From Bacteroidales bacterium CF (GTDB lineage Bacteria > Bacteroidota > Bacteroidia > Bacteroidales > UBA932): a stretch of DNA of 64,000 bases. How positions within the stretch are numbered: position 1 is the stretch's first letter; every line of letters starts with the position of its first letter. Under the pieces are notes generated by a model, which searched no databases, had not been told where the DNA came from, and saw nothing but the letters and a program-made list of their open reading frames with translations. The stretch covers positions 1,550,001-1,614,000 of the forward strand of contig CP006772.1 of the NCBI GenBank assembly GCA_000473305.1, in the 5' to 3' direction. Shown here piece by piece: positions 27,136 to 50,440 of the stretch. A program made the position numbers and the translations under genes.

Positions 27136-27182
27136 TATAAGTAAAAGTGTTTTTAACTTTACACTATATAACAAAAAGTGTA

Positions 27183-28844
27183 ATGTACCGGTTATTTAAT
27201 ATTTGCTTGTTCGCGCTTATTGGCACATCTCTCTTTTCGCAAGAGAAGAATGATATCATTAAAAATTTAGGGAACAGATACGAAAAGGTTGTTTGCGATA
27301 CCGCCTCCGGTTATTTCATTGTAACATCTGGGGAGAGGGAGGGTTTGCTCAATCCTTCCGGGCAAGAGATAATTCCTCCTGCAGAATACAACAAAGTAAG
27401 ATGTTTTTTCATCAGCGATGGATATATTATTGTTGTCAAAGATGGGAAAACAGGACTCACAGACCTTACAGGTAAAGTTATTTTGGCTCCCGGAAGATAT
27501 AAAAATTTTGACAACAGGTTTTTCAAGGATGGTTATATATCTGTAAATGAAGACCGGTCATATGGACTTTGTAACAATTATGGTGTTGAGATTATCCCCC
27601 TCGGGAAATACACATCTGTATCATTGTATTATGTTAATGATGGAGTTATCATAATTCACAAAGATGGTAGGGCCGGAATCTGTGATCTGTCCGGAAAAGA
27701 GTTGATTCCTCCTGTCATGACAAATATATATCTTAACAAGAAGGATGGTTTTATAAGTGTGGAACAGGATGGAAAAAAAGGCATCTATGATTTGAGTTGT
27801 AAAGAACTTATTGCACCAGTATATTCAAAATGTATGTTTTATGATAGTTTTTTCCATGTTGAAAAAGATGGAAAGATGGGTTTGTATACCAAAGACGGTC
27901 TTGTGGTCTTACCTACTGAAATGGACGCTATCTACATATATGAAAAAGAGGGGTATATAGTTGTCAAGAGGGGTGGAAAGAGCGGTGTATGCTCCATGGA
28001 TGGGAAATATATAGTCGAACCTGTTATGGAGGAACTGAGTGTCTATTATCCTGATGGATACATACATATAACTAAAGAGGGAAAGAAAGGATTGCTCGAC
28101 ATCAAAGGCAAAGAGATCATACCTCCTGTTATGGACAAGGTTTATGTCGACAAATTTCATGGATATATTGAAACTTTGAGCGGAAAAAGTGAGGGGATTT
28201 ATACATTCTCAGGTAAAGCAATTATTCCCGTAGGCAAATACACTAATATAACAGAATTCTACCTTCAGAACAGTCAGAATAAATTCTATATTGTAACTGA
28301 TGAGGGAGATAAGAAGGGCCTTTATGATCTGAATGGAAACCAGAAGATTCCGGCAGAGTATTCAATGATTGTTTATGATGATACAGACCGCTATATAAGA
28401 GTAAGGAACGGAGATTTTGTAGGTGCTTATGATACTGATGGAAGATTAATGATTCCATGTACTTATACAGCGATTTCTTGTATTTCAGGCAGATTTGAGG
28501 TACAGCAACAAAAAGACGGTCCGTATACAGTTTACAATGTTCCTGGATATGCCCCCGTGGAAAAAAATGTCCACACACAACCTGACAAGCCGCAGACAAA
28601 TGTTGTTATCGTTCCGGTATATGTTCCGCAAACCACAAATCCTTCACAAAACAATCAGACACAACAGCCAAGGAAAGTTCAGTGCCCATACTGTAACGGT
28701 ACCGGCCGGAGAGATGTGATAAAATTTGCTCCAAGCTACGGAGGTAATAACGAATGGTGCACTATATGCCGTAAAGTCGTAGCTGCAGGGCATTATCACG
28801 ACAATGTGAAGTGCATACACTGCAACGGGACGGGATACAGGTAG
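27183..28844 (+). CDS. secreted WG-repeat protein with DnaJ-like zinc tail
   Basis: The 553-residue protein (from the ATG at 27183; an ATG 36 bases upstream gives no signal peptide) has a signal peptide FNICLFALIGTSLFSQ. It then contains about fourteen WG/KWG-type repeats of 25-40 residues, each containing short D-G-(K/R)-x-G-(L/I)-x-(D/N) units such as KDGKTGLTDLTGK. The last 75 residues include CPYCNGTGRR, WCTICRK and CIHCNGTGYR, matching the DnaJ CxxCxGxG zinc motifs. WG repeats usually form beta-propeller-like surfaces. Binding of partners or cell-surface function is inferred. Confidence 0.88.
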   Translation: MYRLFNICLFALIGTSLFSQEKNDIIKNLGNRYEKVVCDTASGYFIVTSGEREGLLNPSGQEIIPPAEYNKVRCFFISDGYIIVVKDGKTGLTDLTGKVILAPGRYKNFDNRFFKDGYISVNEDRSYGLCNNYGVEIIPLGKYTSVSLYYVNDGVIIIHKDGRAGICDLSGKELIPPVMTNIYLNKKDGFISVEQDGKKGIYDLSCKELIAPVYSKCMFYDSFFHVEKDGKMGLYTKDGLVVLPTEMDAIYIYEKEGYIVVKRGGKSGVCSMDGKYIVEPVMEELSVYYPDGYIHITKEGKKGLLDIKGKEIIPPVMDKVYVDKFHGYIETLSGKSEGIYTFSGKAIIPVGKYTNITEFYLQNSQNKFYIVTDEGDKKGLYDLNGNQKIPAEYSMIVYDDTDRYIRVRNGDFVGAYDTDGRLMIPCTYTAISCISGRFEVQQQKDGPYTVYNVPGYAPVEKNVHTQPDKPQTNVVIVPVYVPQTTNPSQNNQTQQPRKVQCPYCNGTGRRDVIKFAPSYGGNNEWCTICRKVVAAGHYHDNVKCIHCNGTGYR

Positions 28845-28847
28845 GGA

Positions 28848-28882
28848 AGAGTGAAAAGTGAAAAGTGAAGAGTGAAAAGTGA
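28848..28882 (+). repeat. five heptamer tandem repeat (AAAGTGA)
   Basis: Five consecutive heptamers, AGAGTGA-AAAGTGA-AAAGTGA-AGAGTGA-AAAGTGA, fill the 43-base gap between the convergent WG-repeat gene and ROK kinase gene. A related array occurs inside the MFS gene at 41014-41057. Confidence 0.9.
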
Positions 28883-28887
28883 ATCAG

Positions 28888-29988
28888 TTATTTTGAATCA
28901 ATACTATCAATCGCATAACAATATGCACCTATTGCAATTGCCTTACTTGCACCCAGTTTGGAAATCATGACACCGGTTCTCTTCTCAGGATCATATATTA
29001 CCTTTTTATCGCTACCGTATACACTGATTTCCCGACTCTCTCCCTTAGCAAACTTTTCAAACTCTTCCTTTGAATCCAGATTATAAACATTCATCTGAAG
29101 ACGACCGACACTCTCCCCTCCGATAGTCTTCAACTCACTCCTCATCTCCTTTAACATTGAAGGCATAATAAACTTGCTTGCAGCTGTGATTCCACCACCA
29201 ACAACAACAATACCATCTACAAGGGATGTGGCTGTTGCTATTGCATCTCCGGCAATTTCACCAAAGAGTTCGAAAGCTTTGACGGCTGCATCTTTATCTC
29301 CATCCATTGCACCTGTTGCAACTCTGTAAATATCTACAGGTTCAAGGTTATAATCCGGATGGTTTGCAAATTCACCATAAGCTCTTTTAATAGCCCTTAC
29401 AGAGACACCGTCTTCAACAATAATACCGGGTAATAATTTATGTTTAAGGCAAAAAGTTTCTGTGCACGAATTATCCCCCATATGAAGCTTTCCATTTATT
29501 GATAAGCCGTATCCAAAACCTGTACCCCAGGTATAACCTATTAGGTTGTTATATTGTTTGTGACTGCCGGCCTCCCTCAATCTCTGGTTAATCTCAGGAA
29601 GGGCTCCTGCAACTGCTTCCCCGTATGTAAAAAGATCAGCATCATTATTTATGTACACCGGCAAACCAAACTTTTCCTCTAAAAAAGGGCCTAAAGCCAC
29701 TCCATCCCTGAACGACGGGAAGTTAGGCAGATAGCCTCCTATAATTCCGTTTTTGTAATCAGCCGGGCCCGGAAAGGCAAAACTGATGGCAACGGGACTG
29801 TTGCCCAAAGATTTGATTATAGCTTCAAAACCCTTTACCAAAGTGGCAAGGCAGTTATCCAAATCCGAGGCGTTAGAAGGGAGGGTTATTGGTCTTACAA
29901 CATATTCGTTACCCTGAATGGCACTGAAGACAAAATTTGTTCCTCCTGCATCCAGTGTGACTACAATTCTGTTTTCCTTAGTATACAT
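28888..29988 (-). CDS. ROK-family sugar kinase
   Basis: ROK proteins phosphorylate hexoses such as glucose, mannose or N-acetylglucosamine. The start MYTKENRIVVTLDAGGTN at 29988 gives the ATP-binding DxGGTN motif near the N-terminus, and a longer open frame upstream would place it unusually far in. The catalytic aspartate lies in INNDADLFTYGEA. The zinc motif CxCGxxGC of many ROK kinases is absent; the equivalent region reads NSCTETFCLKHKLL. At 366 residues it is slightly long. It lies downstream of lutC, separated by 100 bases with its own promoter, so it may be separately controlled. Confidence 0.87.
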   Translation of the reverse strand: MYTKENRIVVTLDAGGTNFVFSAIQGNEYVVRPITLPSNASDLDNCLATLVKGFEAIIKSLGNSPVAISFAFPGPADYKNGIIGGYLPNFPSFRDGVALGPFLEEKFGLPVYINNDADLFTYGEAVAGALPEINQRLREAGSHKQYNNLIGYTWGTGFGYGLSINGKLHMGDNSCTETFCLKHKLLPGIIVEDGVSVRAIKRAYGEFANHPDYNLEPVDIYRVATGAMDGDKDAAVKAFELFGEIAGDAIATATSLVDGIVVVGGGITAASKFIMPSMLKEMRSELKTIGGESVGRLQMNVYNLDSKEEFEKFAKGESREISVYGSDKKVIYDPEKRTGVMISKLGASKAIAIGAYCYAIDSIDSK

Positions 29989-30024
29989 TTTAATATTTGT
30001 TATCTGATAATTATTAAGTGTTAA

Positions 30025-30057
30025 CAAATATATAAAAAAGTATGGTAATCCGCTCAA
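30025..30057 (-). promoter_or_regulatory. promoter for the downstream ROK kinase
   Basis: On minus, TTG (30057-30055) and TATATTTG (30032-30025) are 22 bases apart, 36 bases upstream of the kinase ATG. The 100-base gap here is the largest in the carbohydrate locus. Confidence 0.5.
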
Positions 30058-39137: not shown

Positions 39138-40399
39138 TTTCCAATTTTTATTTTTTCAATCTCCTCTAAAAAATCATCTTTGAAATTATAGAGTCTGAAC
39201 GACAACAGTATTTCACCCTTTTCGGTACTCCATGATTCATCAACCGGAATGTCGATTATCGAAGGTGAAAGCGGAGATACCTCCGTTTCGAACAAGACTC
39301 TGTTTTTTATATTTTTTGCTTCTGCCTCTTCATCCATAACCATCCGGAAAAAACCACCATTAAAGAAGCCAAACTCTCCTTTGATATGTAATCCGTCAGA
39401 CATTTTCTCAGTATGTATCCGCGATACAGTAACACCATATTTGGAAGCAGCCTTTATACACATTCCACTTTCGATTGTACAGGCAGAAATGGTGTATTGG
39501 AAATCATAACTTTCCCCGGGACTTAACTTCACCAGTGGTGAGAGAATCTCCATCTCCATATACGGAGGGTTAACCTTTCTATCAGATTTATGAATATTAA
39601 CCCTGCCCCTCGAATATGTTGCACCCTCACCCTGAGTCCACACCTGGAGAGATGTGCCATCGGGATACTCTGCGCCATCAGCAACATCAAAATTCATTAC
39701 CAGTACCTTGCCACTGCTCCTGTTTACACAGGCAATCCACCCATCGGCAGAATCAGTTCCAACCTTACCGACTATATATTTGTATGCAACTACCAGGTTG
39801 CCGGCTTCATCGCACATATACTGAGGATTATTGGCCAACCCGTGTAACACTTTATATTGAGCGTTTCCTTTAGAATCTTTTTTTGCAGGACACACTATCT
39901 GTGATTGTTCAACAGCCTGTTCATCGACAGCAACCTGACAAACCGGCCATACAGACCATCGTATATCCTTGTCAATTTTATTGGTAAAAGTTGCAGAAAT
40001 ATCTATAGTCGCTACATCAGGGTTAACTGTAAATTGTCTTTGAATCTGCAAGCCTGTTCTTTTGTCCACAGGACTTTTAAGGGTAACCAGGTTGTTTTCA
40101 GTATTGCACTCATAAACACCTCCATCCAAAATATGATCCGGTGGTCCGGGCCAATACCCGTCACCATCCCAGCCTTGTGGCGCCGGCCAAACCTTCTCTC
40201 CTCCGAAATTCATCCATGGTTTGTCAGGAATCCTTTCAGGAAAAAGGGATTCTAAAGCAGGATTCACAAACAGATATTCATGTCCGTGCAAGGAAAACTG
40301 CATAAGTCTTCCTCCCAAATCAGGTACGACATGACAATCTATCAAGCCATTGCTCAGAGAGAGCGCATTCCACCCCTTATATGTTGTGTATCTTAGCAT
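39134..40399 (-). CDS. DUF4380-like, mutarotase-fold protein
   Basis: The protein of about 421 residues (start MLRYTTYKGWNALSLSNG at 40399) resembles DUF4380/aldose-1-epimerase-like beta-sandwich domains, with VVPDLGGRLMQFSLHG early and MEMEILSPLVKLSPG later. A sugar mutarotation or binding role is inferred from fold and context. It has no signal peptide. A longer in-frame start at 40432 lies further inside the MFS gene. With the preferred start it overlaps the MFS stop by 23 bases. Confidence 0.72.
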   Translation of the reverse strand: MLRYTTYKGWNALSLSNGLIDCHVVPDLGGRLMQFSLHGHEYLFVNPALESLFPERIPDKPWMNFGGEKVWPAPQGWDGDGYWPGPPDHILDGGVYECNTENNLVTLKSPVDKRTGLQIQRQFTVNPDVATIDISATFTNKIDKDIRWSVWPVCQVAVDEQAVEQSQIVCPAKKDSKGNAQYKVLHGLANNPQYMCDEAGNLVVAYKYIVGKVGTDSADGWIACVNRSSGKVLVMNFDVADGAEYPDGTSLQVWTQGEGATYSRGRVNIHKSDRKVNPPYMEMEILSPLVKLSPGESYDFQYTISACTIESGMCIKAASKYGVTVSRIHTEKMSDGLHIKGEFGFFNGGFFRMVMDEEAEAKNIKNRVLFETEVSPLSPSIIDIPVDESWSTEKGEILLSFRLYNFKDDFLEEIEKIKIGK

Positions 40400-41654
40400 A
40401 ATCTCTGTTATAGAAGAACTTATATGCCACAACCATTAATAATCCACAAACCAGCCATATTACTGCCAGGCTCGAAATTGAGAAAGAGAGTCCCAGAACC
40501 GGTTTCATCAACCCCAGAATCAGAGGGGAGAGAGAACCCACAGCAAAGCCTAGCATAATCATCACACCAGAGGCAGAAGAGTGGTACTTTTCAGGAATAA
40601 CATCATACAACACTGTATATGTGTTTGCATCGAAAAAAGCCCTTGCGAACCCAAATCCAGCAAAACCAACATAAATTGCTGCCAGAGTCCCGGAATTACC
40701 CATCAAAATAATGAAAGGCACCGCAAACAGAAGACCTCCTGCCTGAAGCAAAATCCTGTTTGCCGGATTCTTACCTGCAAGCTTGTCAGAGAGTTTCCCG
40801 GCAATCATTACGCCAAAGAAAGCGAACAGGTGTGTATAGAACATTGAGTGAAAACCAGCCTCAGCTAATGACATGTTGAACTCCTCATAAAGGTATGTGG
40901 GCATCCATGTAAGATATCCTGTAAGAACAAAGATCAGTCCGCTGAATCCGATTGTCAGCATAACAGCTGTCGGCGTTGTAAAAAGTACTCTGAACCCTTC
41001 AAAAAGCGAAATCTTTTCACTCTTCACATTTTCACTATTCACTCCCTCACTATTCACTATCCCCTTTTCTCTTTTATCTTTCAATCTGAATATCATCACC
41101 ACCGCGTGAATCACACCAACAGCACCAAATACCAGAAATGCACTTCGCCAACCGTAATGCTGACCGATATATCCCGCAACAAAACCGCTCAGGATGACTC
41201 CCACATAATATGATGTCTGGTGTATGGACATTGCGAAAGATCGCGTCTCCCTATGATAGCTTGCCAGCAATGCATAATTGGATGGTCCGAAAAAGGCCTC
41301 CCCGCCTCCTGTGGCAACACTCCTCATAACAATAAGCATTATCATTCCGTTGCTCAACCCTGTAAACATTGTGGCAACACTCCAGAAAAGAATGCTAAGC
41401 GAGACAATCCACTTCCTGCTGAAAAGGTCGCCTATATATCCTGCCATGGGCACCAGAAGGGCATAGACAAGATTAAAAGCTGTGGCGATTGTACCTATTT
41501 GGACATCAGAAAGAGCCAGATCCTCCTTAATTAGTGGCAGTACGACATTAAAAACCTGTCTGTCTGCCTGATTGACAAAGAAAGCAATCCAGAGCAGCAC
41601 AAGTACCTCCCATTTGTAATTATCTTTCTTTACCTTTATAGTATTCATAAACAT
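40377..41654 (-). CDS. MFS sugar transporter
   Basis: The 425-residue inner-membrane permease has 12 predicted helices with the MFS loop motif GDLFSRKW between helices 2 and 3. It resembles the anion/hexuronate-type MFS members common in sugar loci. It probably carries the released monosaccharide across the inner membrane. The central cytoplasmic loop contains a tandem-repeat-encoded stretch (VNSEG-VNSEN-VKSEK) absent from typical transporters. It starts 18 bases after the phosphoesterase and may also start at the third methionine. Confidence 0.88.
   Translation of the reverse strand: MFMNTIKVKKDNYKWEVLVLLWIAFFVNQADRQVFNVVLPLIKEDLALSDVQIGTIATAFNLVYALLVPMAGYIGDLFSRKWIVSLSILFWSVATMFTGLSNGMIMLIVMRSVATGGGEAFFGPSNYALLASYHRETRSFAMSIHQTSYYVGVILSGFVAGYIGQHYGWRSAFLVFGAVGVIHAVVMIFRLKDKREKGIVNSEGVNSENVKSEKISLFEGFRVLFTTPTAVMLTIGFSGLIFVLTGYLTWMPTYLYEEFNMSLAEAGFHSMFYTHLFAFFGVMIAGKLSDKLAGKNPANRILLQAGGLLFAVPFIILMGNSGTLAAIYVGFAGFGFARAFFDANTYTVLYDVIPEKYHSSASGVMIMLGFAVGSLSPLILGLMKPVLGLSFSISSLAVIWLVCGLLMVVAYKFFYNRDYAKIHNI
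41014..41057 (-). repeat. heptamer/octamer tandem array inside the MFS gene
   Basis: Six units with lengths 7-7-8-7-8-7 (plus strand TTTTCAC, TCTTCAC, ATTTTCAC, TATTCAC, TCCCTCAC, TATTCAC) equal GTGAATA-type units on minus. They pair into 15-base periods that encode VNSEG, VNSEN, VKSEK. They resemble the intergenic array at 28848-28882. Confidence 0.85.
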
Positions 41655-50376: not shown

Positions 50377-50440
50377 ACAAATTTAAAGTTTGTTTTTAAA
50401 TATACAATAGGAAGTTTATATTTTTATATAAAATATTATT

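Follow-up and report, generated by a model that had tools for sequence, protein, structure and literature searches.

How can a tandem array of a 7-base unit that carries a stop codon lie within the open reading frame of a transporter gene, and did the repeat arise in the DNA or in the protein? The array in question consists of six GTGA units at 41014..41057 of the window (the whole 64-kb stretch of DNA analyzed), which is C1:1591014-1591057 on the contig, and was identified on the minus strand by GTGA chaining and TRF. The first-pass annotation had listed six heptamer units spaced 7-7-8-7-8-7, with a 15-base period encoding VNSEG, VNSEN and VKSEK. The units and the peptides were borne out, in an intact MFS gene on the minus strand, but chaining gives a spacing of 7-8-7-8-7; the additional 7 is obtained only if a degenerate upstream copy, GGGGATA, is counted as a seventh unit. 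The composite period of the array is 15 bases, TRF reported periods of 15, 7 and 22, and translation yields VNSEGVNSENVKSEK (VNSEG-VNSEN-VKSEK), residues 200-214 of the MFS protein.

The array in the MFS gene

The host gene (40377..41654, minus strand; genes were called as open reading frames and not via a gene finder) is intact and encodes an MFS transporter of 425 aa, which matches Pfam MFS_1 with 193.4 bits against a cut-off of 33.4. A substrate could not be read from NCBIfam: 49 models matched, and the 25 listed all stayed below their cut-offs. In an AlphaFold2 model based on an alignment of 41 sequences (mean pLDDT 86.9), the only one made for the array region of a host protein, most of the array falls in a loop predicted to be disordered (pLDDT <50; protein residues 197-212; 41019..41066, minus strand). 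Numbering in the model is one below that of the protein due to omission of the start codon, so that this loop corresponds to model residues 196-211. Helix 168-189 precedes it, helices 216-225 and 227-257 follow, and we take it to be the cytoplasmic loop between TM6 and TM7 of the MFS topology.

Chains of this length were not produced by chance. Order-2 Markov simulation of the 64-kb window, run 400 times, gave 7/8-spaced GTGA chains of at most 3 units, a value reached in 9 runs, while the real window has a chain of 6. When the loop was recoded synonymously with the protein fixed and codons drawn according to the codon usage of the window ORFs, a chain of 6 was obtained in 1 of 20,000 trials; the same procedure never recovered the chain of the RsmF linker described below (0/20,000). 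A softer heptamer score was likewise matched in none of 2,000 resamples for the MFS and SRAP genes of both this species and its sister, and for RsmF, DnaX and GH31. The pair pattern GTGAANNGTGAA, allowing one mismatch, was found 12 times versus 5.4 expected, a number reached by 1 of 100 shuffles, so this enrichment is less striking than the chain result. The reversed pattern also matches the arrays and is therefore unusable as a null for heptamer counts.

Because synonymous recoding of the peptide recreates the array in only 1 of 20,000 trials, the MFS array is a repeat at the DNA level. The peptide is itself a 5-residue repeat, and duplication at the amino-acid level followed by selection could in principle have produced VNSEG, VNSEN and VKSEK, with the DNA likeness being secondary. 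But a single DNA word, GTGAA, spells both VN/VK and SE in different frames, an arrangement that selection on the protein is unable to create; the heptamer word is also dispersed between genes, and the peptide repeat was present in none of 79 loops outside the sister pair. We regard a protein-level origin as scarcely credible.

The orthologue comparison covered 84 loci, namely the best 80 of 106 relatives and four further loci: L029 of this species, L030 of the sister, and L031 and L032, the loops of the last two being identical to those of L060 and L062. Counted from FRL up to the EG that precedes FRVLF, loop length was 22 to 42 aa across the best 80. The heptamer score of the loop was 43 in this species and 33 in the sister (L059, with a loop identical to that of G006), while the 79 loops outside the pair had a mean of 6.1 (sd 1.9) and a maximum of 11. 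None of these 79 loci contained a heptamer array in the loop, nor were loops with the same peptide in unrelated codons found among them. The array is thus confined to the two sisters among the loci compared, in agreement with the earlier proposal of a DNA repeat within coding sequence.

A close orthologue of the MFS gene was detected in 2 of the 24 congeners searched, G006 and G017. Between this species and its sister, the DNA is identical at 513 of 573 positions before the loop and 561 of 636 after it. Inside the loop 33 of 66 aligned bases are identical, with 30 more bases in the sister. By the strict GTGA chain the sister loop is weak, since its chain of 2 was reached in 1,026 of 20,000 resamples, and it stands out by the softer score only. 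Judging from these alignments, both sisters probably inherited the array from their common ancestor, after which it diverged; the sister loop holds a longer, decayed version.

Other dispersed repeats had been suspected by eye in the same loop of L108, L110, L111, L124 and L128, of which only L128 was upheld. In this distant relative the loop of the gene (L128, 3001-4296) carries the repeat AGCGAAGAATC, present in 24 copies in a 2.3-Mb genome versus 0 for the reversed control. The genome of L124 has 3 copies of its loop word with about 1 expected by base count, that of L110 has 10 copies although the exact word is absent from the L110 loop, and those of L108 and L111 have 2 and 1, respectively.

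Dispersal of the heptamer in the genome and the genus

Tandem 7-base units of the form GTGANNA occur at many sites of this one genome. The arrays are mostly intergenic with plain 7-base spacing, and 41 of at least four units were counted, which is a lower bound: the pattern was listed at no fewer than 100 places (>=100), the count refers to sampled stretches, and the 21-base form described below escapes 7/8 chains. The dispersed nature of the repeat, proposed in the first-pass annotation, was thereby confirmed.

The five-unit intergenic array that had been noticed near 28848 was found on the plus strand at 28846..28885 by chaining and TRF (units 28851-28885; TRF 28846-28883), with plain 7-base spacing. 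A WG-repeat gene (27147-28844, plus strand) and a ROK-family gene (28888-30057, minus strand) flank it with their 3' ends. At the syntenic site of the sister species no array was found; from two genomes, gain in this lineage and loss in the sister are inseparable. Both presence and length of arrays vary between the sisters, as shown by this site and by a 15-base difference in the GH31 gene.

Of 25 genomes of the genus, 2 had exact 4-unit GTGAANN arrays, namely this one and that of the sister, G006; the count rests largely on incomplete multi-contig genomes, and arrays can drop out of assemblies made from short reads. A looser 3-unit pattern, applied to eight chosen relatives, gave 27 matches in G006, 25 in G035 and 0 to 3 in the other six. 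G035 belongs to another genus of the same family, and its matches are mostly of the GTGATTA/G type; related arrays are therefore not confined to the sister pair.

Alternating spacing is found outside genes as well. The intergenic array C1:1760765-1760808 is also spaced 7-8-7-8-7, and runs of 7/8 occur in further intergenic arrays; phasing thus comes about in the absence of coding selection too. At gene ends, the KdtA-type, exonuclease VII and Wzz-type genes terminate inside arrays.

The arrays could also be what a cassette-carrying mobile element left behind, or the sites that it targets. Such a reading is favored by the polysaccharide locus C1:1723584-1731678, where arrays separate successive genes, some of accessory type (AAA_14, 23S-IVP, SLFN/AlbA_2, ATPase_2), and by another array that adjoins AAA_21/AAA_15, RloB and DUF4143 genes. 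Of 30 genes that flank arrays outside the polysaccharide locus, however, 3 were mobile or accessory in kind (IS110-type transposase, RloB and DUF4143/AAA_14), two of them beside the RloB-site array; 25 belonged to other Pfam families, including enolase, DnaK, KdtA and exonuclease VII, and 2 had no Pfam match. At the one site compared, near 28848, there was no gain of a flanking gene relative to the sister. The arrays were consequently rejected as general borders of accessory cassettes, and a mobile-element origin is considered quite improbable.

Several other features were observed. The polysaccharide cluster as a whole (C1:1718000-1735000) has arrays between successive genes, including those for AAA_14, 23S rRNA-IVP, SLFN/AlbA_2 and ATPase_2. 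Arrays at C1:1799348-1799465 lie between neighboring MFS genes of 472 and 459 aa, and in the sister arrays are found between ORFs of the same lengths. The window also contains an AT-rich 26-base tandem repeat of 1.9 copies at 50386-50435. The ORFs C1:1698513-1698959 (148 aa) and C1:1726522-1727016 (164 aa) are largely antisense reads of arrays and are probable false genes. This is a warning for annotation, since antisense reads of heptamer arrays give long ORFs that are probably false.

Frame arithmetic and other host genes

In an idealized plain 7-base array every sense frame is closed by TGA within three units, and the antisense frames are free of stops. Six units can be spaced by sevens and eights in 32 ways, of which 2, both strictly alternating, are open; the MFS and RsmF arrays each have one of these. 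Combinations of 7+8 bases, of 7+11, or of three sevens minus one TGA each leave one sense frame open, which reads V-K/N/R-S-E; these residues are forced because the open frame is single.

All five sense arrays inside recognized genes (one each in MFS, RsmF and DnaX and two in GH31) have one open sense frame, as against 1 of the remaining 36 of the 41 arrays. This contrast is in part a matter of definition, as a gene would stop at a closed array; what it adds is the rarity of phased arrays elsewhere and the existence of several different phasing solutions. The earlier description of the MFS array as frame-selected can accordingly be kept in the sense of a survival filter, given that 2 of 32 spacings are open and the array has one of them, but it is no proof of a useful loop. 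The related claim that the repeat invaded coding sequence is upheld insofar as the repeat is in the gene and absent from 79 of 79 other loops, but the array may instead have grown in place from a short seed.

The coding arrays in MFS, RsmF, GH31, DnaX and SRAP of this species have periods of 15, 18 or 21 bases, and the frame is kept. In the RsmF gene (C1:1696862-1698544, sense) the array encodes residues 407-451, after the methyltransferase match, which ends at 384, and before the PUA match, which starts at 501; part of it is a 15-base repeat of 2.8 copies at 100% match. RsmF of the sister was not found on search. In the DnaX gamma/tau gene (C1:1870160-1871923, sense) 18-base and then 15-base units encode residues 381-418, past the end of the N-terminal DnaX match at 363. 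The GH31 gene (C1:2179992-2182373, sense) has a 15-base period at residues 737-761 of 793, beyond the final Pfam match, which ends at 727 as measured on the sister protein. The GH31 proteins of the two sisters are 98% identical (780/798 residues), and the array in this species is shorter by 5 residues, or 15 bases.

The array of the SRAP gene (L265, C1:1236060-1236638, sense) follows the GFYEW motif and has a 21-base period with 5.9 copies, while the sister gene has 7-8-7 spacing at the same place and TRF periods of 7 and 28. No SRAP repeat was seen by eye in 17 of 18 other loci, and in the remaining one the loop was undetected by the script. A short tract, LKSEKVKSEESS, is present at 445 of a serine hydrolase (C1:222019-223677, sense; best NCBIfam match below cut-off), behind its match to the Pfam Beta-lactamase family (to 405). 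In the gene for a GH26 protein (L235, C1:517121-518341) the array is antisense, and the N-terminus is built of seven of its units, a chain reached in 2 of 20,000 resamples. By eye, this N-terminus seems to resemble a lipoprotein signal peptide, and that of the sister appears ordinary.

RsmF contains repeats of other kinds as well. An insert of the HSS/DHS type in its methyltransferase domain was tried as a 7/8 heptamer and rejected (chain of 1, reached by 19,664 of 20,000 resamples); its TRF periods are 12, 24, 36 and 60 bases, and it was excluded from the array count. The open frames of RsmF in the genus (L204-L233) range from 403 aa, some perhaps cut by contig ends, to 669 aa, and several species have low-complexity tandem inserts after APGGKSTH and in the linker before PUA. 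To judge by these sequences, RsmF looks like a hot spot for repeat inserts. The RsmF linker of the congener G017 (L226, 1436-1510) carries another heptamer, GGCAATN, in 10.7 copies with a plain 7-base period, which needs no phasing because it is read through without a stop.

Could the arrays have a function? Simple repeats are known switches in other bacteria, and since 7 is not a multiple of three, slippage by one unit would shift the frame, as expected of a contingency locus for phase variation of the transporter. The composite period of the MFS array is, however, 15 bases, and the length differences between the sisters are in frame (30 bases in MFS, 15 in GH31), with the genes open in both. 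On this evidence the switch was rejected and is held to be very unlikely. Alternatively, the VKSEK segments could be adaptive, serving as tunable linkers under positive selection for charge or length. In favor of this, three host proteins (DnaX, RsmF and SRAP) have functions of the core type, and the GH31 and SRAP arrays are present in both sisters. Against this, the residues are dictated by the sole open frame, the MFS array of the sister is decayed at the DNA level, and the RsmF, DnaX and GH31 arrays lie outside or between domains where the borders are known, the exception being the SRAP array, which is within its Pfam domain match. Adaptation is therefore unlikely, if less so than a switch.

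We consider it highly probable that a heptamer simple-sequence repeat proliferated in the two sisters and that its sense copies within genes survive in phased form only. A repeat with the consensus AGTGANN would spread in two sister species of one Bacteroidales genus, the copying step presumably being slipped-strand duplication. The stop codon in the unit would remove nearly all sense-strand insertions in genes by purifying selection, leaving phase-compensated survivors with a period of 15 bases (7+8), 18 bases (7+11) or 21 bases (3x7, one unit having lost its TGA). Such forms could persist where the protein tolerates extra residues (loops, linkers, ends), would be read as V-K/N/R-S-E-x with probably near-neutral effect, and would then change length in whole multiples of three. 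More generally, a single proliferating 7-base repeat might be a source of new, probably disordered protein segments in a bacterial chromosome: its stop codon would be a sieve that admits it to genes, those for replication and ribosome modification among them, only in antisense or in the few phased forms (15, 18 and 21 bases) that the arithmetic permits, with whole-codon length changes afterwards; we give this broader proposal slightly less than an even chance. The path from noncoding repeat to new protein segment could be traced by strain comparison.

Comparison with known repeat systems

Rickettsia palindromic elements are dispersed repeats inserted in frame in many unrelated genes; unlike the tandem heptamers described here, they are palindromic and much longer than a heptamer. 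The repeat studied here shares more than one feature with TAACTGA heptamers of Beggiatoaceae, cyanobacteria and some Bacteroidetes, the best-described stop-bearing heptamers in the literature searched, which are dispersed, mostly intergenic direct repeats (MacGregor 2015, PMC4679880). According to the same paper, forward repeats have stops in all three frames and are hence necessarily at ORF ends, copies within coding sequence are in reverse orientation, and long arrays in some Bacteroidetes can be missing from close relatives (PMC4679880). Both repeats are dispersed, stop-bearing and mostly intergenic, and several arrays here are also at gene ends, but the unit is GTGANNA, and forward arrays are internal to the MFS, RsmF, DnaX, GH31 and SRAP genes in phase-compensated form.

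In Borgs, tandem repeats within ORFs have units divisible by three and are commonly disordered and fast-evolving, while intergenic units are mostly indivisible by three and nearly all units are locus-unique (PMC9879509). Here the coding periods are likewise divisible by three, and the repeat region of the MFS protein is predicted to be disordered. Unlike in Borgs, one 7-base word is common to intergenic and coding arrays at many loci, and the multiple of three is achieved via altered spacing or loss of a stop.

The heptamers GGGAATC and GGGGA(T/C)T of Xanthomonas and Nostoc are dispersed and mostly intergenic, and some overlap stop codons; a GTGATTA heptamer in Helicobacter pylori is mentioned as well (PMC4692102). 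The Xanthomonas and Nostoc heptamers contain a G-quadruplex motif and are under-represented in coding sequence, and no phased coding form is described in the sections consulted. A survey of prokaryotic satellites includes heptamer-derived families and short-repeat satellites with units in multiples of three that are maybe gene parts (PMC6749651), and there the classes are kept separate, with no single word appearing in both forms in the sections consulted.

In the open-licence literature the exact heptamer words had no match, and a stop-bearing dispersed heptamer that is plain between genes and phased within them was not found. Disordered coding repeats divisible by three (Borgs) and dispersed heptamers (several bacteria) are already known, and tandem repeats in coding sequence are as a rule placed in a class of their own. 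Here one word occurs in both forms in one genome, with several solutions to one frame problem.
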